DNA of 64,000 nucleotides from Thermincola carboxydiphila (lineage in GTDB: Bacteria > Bacillota > Thermincolia > Thermincolales > UBA2595), in NCBI GenBank assembly GCA_016841045.1, contig JAENZX010000001.1, positions 329,541 to 393,540 of the forward strand. The letters run 5' to 3'. Below the pieces are notes generated by a model. The model saw only the letters and a program-made list of their open reading frames with translations. It ran no database searches and was not told the origin of the DNA. Made by a program: the position numbers and the translations under genes. Of this stretch, positions 54,977 through 58,171 are shown in pieces (positions within the stretch are counted from its first letter, which is position 1; every line of letters begins with the position of its first letter).

Positions 54977-55723
54977 TTAAAATATTTTACTTAAAAAAGC
55001 CTGAGTACGCTCATTTTGTGGGTTATTAAATAATTCTTCAGGGGTTCCTTCTTCAATTATTTTTGTGTCATCCATAAAAACAACCCTGTCTGCTACCTCA
55101 CGGGCAAAACCCATCTCATGCGTGACTACTAACATTGTCATCCCTTCCCGAGCAAGTTCTTTCATTACTCCCAGAACCTCACCAACAAGTTCTGGATCCA
55201 GTGCTGATGTAGGTTCATCAAACAGCATTACCTGAGGCTGCATCGCCAGAGCCCTGGCTATAGCCACCCTTTGCTTCTGGCCTCCTGAAAGCATAGCCGG
55301 GTATTCATCCCGTTTATCCTGAAGGCCCACTTTTGCCAGAAGACTCTCCGCCAGTTGGACAGCCTCCCCTTTACTCATGCCTTTTACCTGGGTTGGCCCT
55401 TCAATTACGTTTTGCAGCACTGTCATATGCGGAAACAGGTTAAAGTGCTGAAAAACCATTCCCACATCCTGGCGCATTGTATTGATAGTCTTTTCTTTAC
55501 GTTCAACTAACCGCCCATCTATATATATTTCTCCCAATCTACTTTTCTCCAGAAAGTTAATACAACGCAGCAGGGTACTCTTACCAGAGCCGCTAGGCCC
55601 GATGATAACCACCACTTCCCCTTCCGCAACAGATAAATTAATATCCCTTAGAACTTCCAAAGAGCCAAAACTCATATTTAGCCCTTTTACCTCTACCATT
55701 TTACGTTCACTTCTCTTATTCAC
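54977..55723 (-). CDS. Polar amino-acid ABC transporter ATPase (GlnQ-like)
   Basis: 248 residues from GTG 55723 (GGGGTGAG upstream), overlapping no neighbour; an internal ATG at 55699 is the alternative. Walker [26 protein letters not shown], Walker [15 protein letters not shown], His in VVTHEMGFA. Drives the importer with the permease and binding protein upstream. Confidence 0.95.
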
Positions 55724-55730
55724 AGCATAC

Positions 55731-56393
55731 TCACCCCGCCCTGTCACTAATGGCGAGCCTCCGCTCCAACCTGTGAACGAAATAGCCCAGCACAGTAGTC
55801 ATAATAAGATAATAGATTCCGGCAATTATCAGGTACTCCATTGTGTTAAAGGTAGAAGAACCTAACTGCTGAGATTTTAGAAGAAGTTCTCTAACAGCTA
55901 TGGTACTGGCCAGGGAGGAATCTTTGGTGGCGATTATAAACTGATTGCCGAGAGGCGGTACAGCACGTTTTAAGGCCTGAGGCAAAATAATGCGCCGCAT
56001 GGCTTGAAACCTTGTCATTCCCAGTGATCTGGCGGCTTCCGTCTGACCAATATCTATAGATTTAATTGCACCCCTGAATATTTCGGCAATATATGCCCCA
56101 TTGTGGGTTCCAAAAGCTATTACAGCAGATGGGAATGGATCAAGTCTAATGATATTGGCCAAGCCATAATAAACAATAAATAACTGTAATAGAATGGGCG
56201 TACCCCTAATTACTGTTACATAAAAAGTAGAGGGATAGTAAAACAGTTTAAATTTGGAAATCCTGCCTAAAGCAGCTATTAAACCAACTATAATTCCAAA
56301 TACTAATGAAGCCCCTGTTATCTTTAAAGTTTCGATTGCTGCGGGTAAAAATATAGGAAATTTATCTACTACGATACTGAAATCATATGGCAC
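55731..56393 (-). CDS. Polar amino-acid ABC permease (HisM/GlnP-like)
   Basis: 220 residues from GTG 56393, which has AAGGGGGGA eight bases upstream; the longer frame to 56456 runs through the intergenic hairpin. About five membrane helices; EAA loop [23 protein letters not shown]. Usual length for this family. Confidence 0.92.
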
Positions 56394-56435: not shown

Positions 56436-56461
56436 GGTGCATGGCATCACTGCCATGCACC
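56436..56461 (-). terminator. Intercistronic hairpin between binding protein and permease
   Basis: Perfect 11-bp stem GGTGCATGGCA / TGCCATGCACC with a four-base loop, followed on the minus strand only by GGTTTTGCC. More likely an mRNA-stabilising or partial terminator that keeps the binding protein in excess. Confidence 0.7.
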
Positions 56462-56471
56462 TTTGGTCAAT

Positions 56472-57344
56472 TTACTTTAAGTCCTGGGGACCGCTAATTT
56501 CAGAATCATTCCTGACAATCAACTGGGCTCCGGAGTAATAATAAGGATCTGTAAAATCCACAACCTTCAGTCTATCGTCAGTAACAGCCATGCTGCCAAA
56601 AATACCATCATACCGGCCGCTTCTTAAACCTTCAAGAATCCCGCTCCAATCAGTTGTAACAGGTTCATATTTTACTCCCAGCCTTTTGGCCACCTCTGTT
56701 CCGATTTCTACATCAAATCCGGTCAGTTCGTCATTGTCAGTAAAGTAATTAAACGGAGGATAGCCGCCGCTCATAGCAAAACTGATTTTGCCGGCTTTTT
56801 TTACTCTTTCAAGACTGCCATCACTAGCTGGTTTATCTTGGGGGAAAGTCTTCTGATAATCTATTCCTTCAAGAATATCGCGTCCAAAATACTTTTTGCT
56901 GATTTTGGCATAGGTACCGTCTTTAATTATATCAGAAAGGGCTTTATCAATGGCCTGTCTTAATGAATCATCTTCCTGTCTGACAGCAACAGCAATAGTC
57001 TCTTTATAAATGAGATCTCCGGCAAGCTTCAGGTTTTTAAATCCCCCTTCTTTAATACCGATGAGCCCTACCAACCTATCGGTCATAACTCCGTCAAGTC
57101 TGCCGGTAGAGAGTTCCTGAAGGGTTAGGTTGTCATCCTTATATGTCTTTACCTCTTTTACCTTTGAATACTTGTTGGCCTCTTCTTCAAATGTCGTTCC
57201 AAGAGTTACGCCAATTACATATTTCTTGTCCGAGTCTGTGTTTTTACCAGTGTCTGCGGTGTTACTTCCGCAGCCAATAAGTAAGACCCCTGTCATTAGC
57301 AATACCAAAGCAAATGATACGTATTTTAAAGTTTTCTTTAACAT
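56472..57344 (-). CDS. Amino-acid-binding lipoprotein with circularly permuted domains
   Basis: 290 residues from ATG 57344 (AAAAGGAGG nine bases upstream). Lipobox LLIGC. After the linker the sequence begins with what is normally the second half of a type-II binding protein (VIGVTLGTTFEEEANKYS to KISKKYFGRDI), then a linker (EGIDYQKTFPQDKPASDGS), then the normal first half (GKISFAMSGGYPPFNYF to GAQLIVRNDSEISGPQDLK) and stop. The usual order is the reverse, joined exactly at QDLK-(G)-VIGV. So the gene is a circular permutant, probably from a tandem duplication that lost its outer halves. Both halves are intact in length. Confidence 0.9.
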   Translation of the reverse strand: MLKKTLKYVSFALVLLMTGVLLIGCGSNTADTGKNTDSDKKYVIGVTLGTTFEEEANKYSKVKEVKTYKDDNLTLQELSTGRLDGVMTDRLVGLIGIKEGGFKNLKLAGDLIYKETIAVAVRQEDDSLRQAIDKALSDIIKDGTYAKISKKYFGRDILEGIDYQKTFPQDKPASDGSLERVKKAGKISFAMSGGYPPFNYFTDNDELTGFDVEIGTEVAKRLGVKYEPVTTDWSGILEGLRSGRYDGIFGSMAVTDDRLKVVDFTDPYYYSGAQLIVRNDSEISGPQDLK

Positions 57345-57435
57345 CCTTTTCATCCTCCTTTTAATTCTTAACAGCAAAAAACCGGCTATTTTTTAAAACC
57401 ACCCCCAACTTCGGTTTAGGCGCCCAAAAATTCTC

Positions 57436-57493
57436 AATAAAAAAGGGCACTCTAACTCTCTTCTAATTTCTTAGAAGAGAGTTAGAGTGCCCA
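57436..57493 (-). terminator. Leader terminator of the importer operon
   Basis: Minus strand 20-bp perfect stem beginning GGGCACTCTAACTCTCTTCT, loop around AAGAAATT, mirrored arm ending GAGTGCCC, then TTTTTTATT. It lies about 100 bases ahead of the binding-protein gene, so it attenuates the operon. Confidence 0.9.
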
Positions 57494-57640
57494 GGCTTCG
57501 CTTTTACACTCACCCCAGACCATTCTTATGATCCATCCTCAGCCCTGCCCACCAGAACTAAGAAAAGCCCCAGCTCTCTTATACGATAATAGGTTTTTCA
57601 ACTCCGGGTTCGGTGGACTGGTAACGGGTTTATTATAAAC
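57444..57640 (-). promoter_or_regulatory. Structured leader of the amino-acid importer (unassigned cis-RNA)
   Basis: A TATAAT at about 57630-57636 (minus) would start a leader of about 170 bases before a strong terminator. Leader segment AAGAGAG (57571-57580 area) can pair with CTCTCTT in the terminator's left arm, giving an antiterminator. No T-box (no GGGTGGNACCGCG), SAM, lysine or glycine riboswitch signature seen. Could be an undescribed amino-acid-sensing RNA. Confidence 0.5.
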
Positions 57641-58171
57641 TGCAACTGATAATTTATTTAAATGCTTACGCATATCCGCTCAAGAGTCAAGCATATATCC
57701 GCTCACATTTACACCTACTGCCCGGGTCTACTTCACCATCTCCTTAAGAAGGTATGGAATTTAAGCGCCTATTTACTCACAATATTATTTTACCAGGAAA
57801 TTGGCAAAAGAGCAAAATTTCTGAGACGGGAGATTTACTACTATAGAAGGCTAATACCCAATATGCCCAGGTTATCCATAGAATTATATAATTTATTCCT
57901 TATTCCTCCAAATTGAGACAGACACCTCAGTTATTTCAATTGTTCCATCTTACTGTTTCCTTCATTCAATATCTCCCATCCTTTTCATCGTTCTTAATTG
58001 ACTTTTTTATTTAAACACATTTAACTATAAATGTTTAGGTTTTGTAGTGTTAATATAATATAATTATAATCAGTTATAATTGGTTAGGTCAACAGATGCT
58101 GTATTATTTCACATGATACTTAAAATATGATATACTTTCAAAGAAGACCCTAAAAGAAAGGATAAACAGCA

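Follow-up and report, generated by a model that had tools for sequence, protein, structure and literature searches.

Naturally permuted binding proteins of ABC transporters

A natural case of a permuted, lipid-tethered ABC binding protein is TpMglB-2 (Tp0684), classified as 'Type Ic / Cluster Bc', whose homologues are found mostly in treponemes and Gram-positives and in which ligand binding and shape change are retained (PMC4990184). Its authors pointed out that most permuted receptors are tethered and raised the question of rotation as an adaptation to anchoring (PMC4990184). Among the type II binding proteins a natural permutation was found by CPSARST in the glycine-betaine-binding proteins OpuAC/ProX (PMC2395249). 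In the SBP_bac_3 family the permuted form described is an engineered one, the cpLAO-BP biosensor, which still binds lysine, although about 36-fold weaker in the sensor (PMC5087393); that paper also cites Okada 2009.

We analyzed a stretch of 64,000 nucleotides from Thermincola carboxydiphila (hereafter the window) that encodes an SBP_bac_3 protein with its two halves in reversed order. The protein is very probably, to judge from its sequence and operon, a working, naturally circularly permuted type II SBP lipoprotein of a polar-amino-acid ABC importer, and it most likely originated from a tandem duplication. With TpMglB-2 it shares the natural circular permutation and the lipid tether, but TpMglB-2 has a sugar-binding fold of type I (cluster B) with an additional crossing of the hinge, whereas the window protein is probably of type II and belongs to SBP_bac_3. 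With OpuAC/ProX it probably has in common that a type II binding protein is naturally permuted; these proteins, however, are from another family and show low identity between the permuted forms, whereas in SBP_bac_3 a canonical counterpart is close (L071, 69% identical to the window protein in lobe 1a and 49% in the second half) and the permutation recurs within one family. The biosensor cpLAO-BP is of the same family, is likewise rotated at the lobe crossover and also has a flexible linker bridging the old termini, but it is a laboratory construct, cut in the hinge and untethered. Finally, GlnPQ SBD1-SBD2 (6h30) is a tandem of SBP_bac_3 units whose middle part is collinear with the permuted protein, but both units have the canonical order and are fused to the permease. 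In the open-licence literature on permuted binding proteins we found no report of a natural permutation in SBP_bac_3, which as far as we found has not been reported previously.

The permuted gene and its operon

The SBP gene (56472-57344, minus strand) begins with ATG at 57344, ends with a stop codon at 56472-56474 and encodes a product of 290 amino acids. The SBP_bac_3 profile (PF00497) aligns with this product in two segments, which stand in inverted order (E 1.3e-40). In the best segment, residues 188-282 align with profile positions 2-95 of 132, and the C-terminal part of the protein therefore corresponds to the N-terminal part of the profile. At 138.7 bits, relative to a Pfam gathering cut-off of 26.4, the protein is a member of the family; it departs from the linear order with the profile N-terminus first, which is usual for SBP_bac_3 and not part of the family definition. 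The reversal of the two halves of a type II binding protein, which the initial annotation had read from the letters of the DNA, was also found with NCBIfam and with 3vv5, the closest solved relative in a PDB sequence search (E 1e-51), where residues 177-279 align with chain positions 28-130 and residues 41-157 with chain positions 141-257.

The breakpoint is located between ..GPQDLK and (G)KKxxIGV, immediately after the lobe 1-lobe 2 crossover. In canonical relatives the motif equivalent to GPQDLK is followed without interruption by the first lobe 2 strand (PEDLNGKIIG in L071; ADEMADKKIAV in L022). The linker joining the old termini, estimated at 20 residues when first noticed, is about 19 residues long. 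No leftover outer halves were found in the window, where tblastn with each half returned the gene itself and chance matches only. The specific SBP equivalog models stay below their NCBIfam cut-offs, with scores that are lowered by the rotation itself: the cystine model PRK11260 gives 178 bits (cut-off 312), the LAO model TIGR01096 163 bits (256) and the GlnH model PRK09495 108 bits (303).

The two genes behind the SBP gene had been called normal, and their Pfam and NCBIfam matches agree with this: the permease (BPD_transp_1, 96 bits; TIGR01726, 88.2 bits versus a cut-off of 42.2) and the ATPase are by these matches ordinary PAAT-type subunits. An SBP lipoprotein, a permease with the HEQRo signature and an ABC_tran ATPase, which characterize a PAAT-type importer, are thus encoded in a single operon. 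The perfect hairpin between the SBP gene and the permease gene possibly results in an excess of SBP mRNA over permease mRNA.

Upstream of the SBP gene, the 22-bp stem with its U-run has the features of an intrinsic terminator of the operon leader. The leader is probably structured and a candidate regulatory RNA or riboswitch of no Rfam family. A search of 57430-57742 against Rfam gave no family, the c-di-AMP riboswitch being absent even at E 10. Only 3 of the 95 predicted pairs have two-sided changes. In other operons of the same clade (P1, see below) the position of the leader is occupied by a c-di-AMP riboswitch. The features of the window and of the related loci discussed below are listed in Table 1.

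Table 1. Features of the permuted SBP operon in the window and of related SBP_bac_3 loci (C and N, second and first canonical half).
Feature	Location	Strand	Basis or remarks
ABC transporter ATPase (GlnQ/TcyN-like)	54977..55747	-	PF00005, PRK09493, PRK11264
PAAT-type ABC permease	55731..56393	-	PF00528, TIGR01726; probable GTG start 56393 behind AAGGGGGG, longer ORF from 56456; start inferred from sequence
Perfect 11-bp hairpin, SBP stop to permease start	56436..56461	-	Direct reading
N-terminal part of lobe 1 to crossover, residues 177-290, end ..SGPQDLK	56475..56816	-	Canonical first half, here last
Linker, residues 158-176, old C-terminus to old N-terminus	56817..56873	-	Alignment, profile-match gap
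Lobe 2 and C-terminal part of lobe 1, residues 41-157	56874..57224	-	Canonical second half, here first
Variable spacer, lipid-anchor Cys to lobe 2	57225..57269	-	Length 15 aa, in several relatives 3-5 aa
Signal peptide and lipobox (LLIGC, Cys25)	57270..57344	-	Direct reading; invariant Cys25 in A1; clade members with lipobox pattern
Conserved operon leader, about 310 nt, 22-bp terminator stem at end	57430..57742	-	75-79% identity in four same-family genomes
Perfect 22-bp stem, then U-run, about 100 nt upstream of SBP start	57444..57493	-	Sequence, fold; conserved in relatives
P3, rotated C-N	L174		Permease follows, no ATPase before contig end
P4, rotated C-N	L175; L179		L179 permease-fused
P5, rotated C-N	L176, L177, L178		Breakpoint unlike all others
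P6, rotated C-N	L181, L182
Diverged orphans, rotated homologues	L070, L082
Rotated SBP (C-N) and permease in one chain	L179 4663-6246
SBP halves C-N-C-N, then permease, one protein	L180 4029-6293
Lipoprotein, two fused canonical SBP units	L183 5088-6638		80.5% mutually identical; without permease fusion
Open frame with SBP first half only	L079 1414-1899		161 aa

The P1 clade

The rotated genes of the window's clade, here called P1, are found in at least 11 species, the window included. Four further genomes of the window's family contain the full-length, collinear rotated gene, which is also present in the Clostridia MAG SKW158, in the named RefSeq strains Anaerobacterium chartisolvens DSM 27016, Clostridium lacusfryxellense DSM 14205 and Herbivorax sp. 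ANBcel31, as well as in a further two genomes from the order of Anaerobacterium. Identity of the window protein to the eight relatives aligned in A1, which are from several genera, is in the range of 61-77%, and in every P1 member measured 16-18 amino acids separate the two profile matches. The rotated order has been kept across species along with the permease and the ATPase, and the gene is under purifying selection (dN/dS 0.05-0.06 in three close relatives). Support for the monophyly of P1 is moderate (SH-aLRT 85-91).

The initial annotation had named an assembly join of two gene copies as the finding that would refute the permutation. The window genome is in 75 contigs and tandem SBP genes are known in the SBP_bac_3 family (L183, L187), which would both suit a misjoining of two normal copies by assembly error or frameshift. 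Chance and assembly error are ruled out, however, by the collinear full-length relatives in independent assemblies, those of named strains among them, because order, breakpoint and linker length agree in 11 genomes from independent projects. The purifying selection on the rotated gene and the lack of adjacent leftover halves also speak against an artefact, the probability of which is practically nil.

Predicted fold and amino acid pocket

AF2, run with an input of eight sequences, gave a pLDDT of 77 and a pTM of 0.70 for the precursor and of 80 and 0.76, respectively, for the mature part, the pLDDT of residues 253-267 being below 50. In the model the secondary structure elements follow the expected rotated canonical order, and the halves can be superposed on chains of SBP_bac_3 with deviations of about 1.7-2.3 A. 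For structural matches over the whole length (MetQ-type, OpuAC) the deviation is in most cases 4-6 A, a result that we read as the pseudo-symmetry of the two lobes. Folding of the rotated chain into the usual clamp of two lobes is likely from this model but no more than likely, because neither structural aligner tests for rotation. Among the best 60 profile matches to solved structures there was no rotated SBP_bac_3 protein, only the tandem 6h30 spanning the order.

The usual clamp is expected because the old termini are both on lobe 1, where a bridge of about 19 residues is enough, and because the new termini are on lobe 2, past the first crossover. The pocket would then be reassembled from opposite ends of the chain. 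In LAO-BP the residues Arg77, Thr121 and Asp161 clamp the backbone of the amino acid. In our alignment Arg77 is equivalent to Arg258, which comes from the now C-terminal half, and Ser120/Thr121 and Asp161 are equivalent to Thr50/Thr51 and Asp89, which come from the now N-terminal half. The residues T50, T51, D89, W233 and R258 are invariant in P1 (alignment A1). The clamp would close on its amino acid ligand, for which lysine or another basic amino acid is the most likely candidate, and the closed clamp would dock to the permease dimer in the usual way; the mechanical difference would be that the lipid anchor is on lobe 2 rather than on lobe 1.

The rotated protein could instead have taken on a sensing or other role and no longer serve as the receptor of a transporter, as might be thought of the diverged rotated homologues L070 and L082, which are orphans without lipobox, permease, ATPase and an equivalent of Arg258. 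The window protein, however, has retained both the lipobox and the pocket residues, and its gene directly precedes those of the permease and the ATPase, as do the genes of the other P1 members; we consider a role outside transport very improbable.

The importer is likely to take up basic amino acids, and its substrate is perhaps lysine, with a chance somewhat better than even. This assignment is based by analogy on the operon context of relatives and on the similarity to 3vv5, which together with its series we take to be a basic-amino-acid binder. The P1 operons of L018, L019 and L116 each have a c-di-AMP riboswitch before them (Rfam, 73-98 bits), and behind them lie ablA (lysine 2,3-aminomutase) in all three and also ablB (beta-lysine acetyltransferase) in L019 and L116, each scoring above its cut-off; in L018 dapB is located in front. 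By gene content these appear to be osmolyte operons with a dedicated importer of their own. In osmolyte synthesis, ablA and dapB are reported to be under the control of tandem Na+ and c-di-AMP riboswitches (PMC9337991). Above its cut-off ablA is present in 11 of 11 P1 genomes versus 143 of 398 in the Bacillota sample (uncorrected for kinship), which is only suggestive because ablA is common in Bacillota. The operon in the window is without ablAB and without a recognizable c-di-AMP riboswitch.

For another polar amino acid (glutamine, arginine or cystine) as substrate speaks that the top NCBIfam score of the protein is with a cystine-binding model and that the permease and the ATPase resemble cystine/glutamine systems, all below the equivalog cut-offs, and that the position of Asp11 in LAO-BP is occupied by Ser192 in our alignment. 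Set against the similarity to 3vv5 and the ablA, ablB and dapB neighbors in relatives, such a substrate has a real chance, albeit one below even.

Recurrence in Bacillota

For the survey a profile (A3) made from rotated canonical and natural rotated sequences was searched against 398 Bacillota genomes, and all open frames were then sorted with two half-profiles, N for the first half and C for the second. Rotated genes can be hidden in annotation because profiles score the halves separately. At least 16 of the 398 genomes contain a rotated SBP_bac_3 unit (five are of the window's own family, two have orphans and one has the C-N-C-N form), the counts being lower bounds, with at most seven candidates scored per genome. 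Together with the at least 11 species of P1, and with the distribution over separate clades, this does not bear out the initial view that a natural permutation of this family is rare. In 398 Pseudomonadota genomes the same Bacillota-weighted profile, again with at most seven candidates per genome, found no rotated gene at E 1e-45 and only one tandem pair; on plasmids there was no match at E 1e-30.

An order-level search yielded another rotated gene of low score, L115, and with L115 a rotated homologue was found that is 69% identical (L121; group P2). The canonical genes closest to L115 are up to 77% identical in the first half and 62% in the second. At the P2 locus five genomes (G398, G420, G421, G425 and G454) have a canonical gene whose upstream neighbor and whose following permease and ATPase genes are the same as in P2. 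By this synteny P2 is a permutation in place, five relatives keeping the normal order at the locus.

Further groups, P3 to P6, are given in Table 1. Pfam confirmed SBP_bac_3 in the rotated genes and BPD_transp_1 in the fusion proteins L179 and L180, the latter of which could be composed of two rotated domains or of one canonical domain between two halves. The breakpoints are of three kinds: near the hinge strand before DLKG in P2, P3, P4 and P6, after it in P1, and about 20 residues inside lobe 2 in P5. Transporter genes adjoin, or are fused to, every rotated gene except the orphans.

Two orphan rotated SBP homologues, at L091 8756-9607 and L092 1400-2317, are without lipobox or transporter genes and have lost the pocket Arg; a new function is possible.

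In a tree of 146 rows the rotated state requires by parsimony at least six changes. AU tests on four pairs of groups rejected a joint origin for three of them: P1 with P2 (p 3.7e-5), each of which the tree puts in a different canonical clade, P4 with P3 (p 7e-4) and P4 with P5 (p 1e-4). P3 and P5 as one clade were not rejected (p 0.51) despite their differing breakpoints. A single origin of all rotated forms is thus rejected. On the starred branches P1, P2, P4 and P3/P5 fall into four separate canonical sets, from which we conclude that several independent origins are well supported by the phylogeny. Six origins is a parsimony figure, P6 being unplaced; for P6 and the orphans, which have long branches, the placement in the tree is uncertain.

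Route of origin

Circular permutations can arise by duplication with loss of the outer halves or by fission and re-fusion (PMC3320104). The initial annotation considered tandem duplication the likely origin and proposed a search for relatives with the same order or with the tandem form. Both exist, the former as the 11-species clade P1 and the latter in the relative L183, which by its two fused units corresponds to the tandem stage foreseen; the C-N-C-N form and the C-N permease fusions would be further stages or side products. Within P1 itself the tandem form was not found, and for this clade the route is therefore only inferred.

Fission and re-fusion in the other order is a recognized alternative (PMC3320104), to which recombination between paralogues may be added, and one open frame with the first half only, of 161 amino acids (L079), would be in keeping with it; L079 is perhaps a frameshifted or split gene. 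Open frames with only the second half, by contrast, were found in none of the loci, nor were adjacent split halves, whereas tandem-fused lipoproteins and C-N-C-N forms are extant. Moreover, the linker of P2 looks like the canonical C-terminal tail (DLTTNV) continued by a variable spacer resembling that before the canonical first strand. An origin by fission or recombination is accordingly unlikely. Duplication with loss of the outer halves fits best and is most likely the route: an in-frame tandem duplication would have been followed by loss of the outer halves, and this would have been repeated within SBP_bac_3 in Bacillota.

Tethering and the meaning of the permutation

Nineteen of the 22 rotated sequences examined have the lipobox pattern, the exceptions being the two orphans and L179, for which the permease fused to it serves as anchor. 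The Bacillota cases thus fit the tethering pattern seen with TpMglB-2. This alone is no proof of adaptation because canonical Bacillota receptors are also tethered. It is conceivable, though we regard it as rather doubtful, that the permutation is a recurrent, selected route in tethered Bacillota receptors, in which moving the anchor from lobe 1 to lobe 2 alters the closing of the clamp or its docking; of this, the recurrence has good support and the adaptive role is hypothetical.

If it were true, then, considered together with TpMglB-2 of a different fold class, rotation would be a general adaptation to tethering. Nature provides pairs of rotated and normal receptors, in the case of P2 even at the same locus and with the same transporter genes, and the effect of the moved termini and of the moved anchor on closure, docking and transport is therefore directly measurable. 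Whether rotation is an adaptation to anchoring, as was suggested for TpMglB-2, thereby becomes testable by comparative genomics and at the bench.
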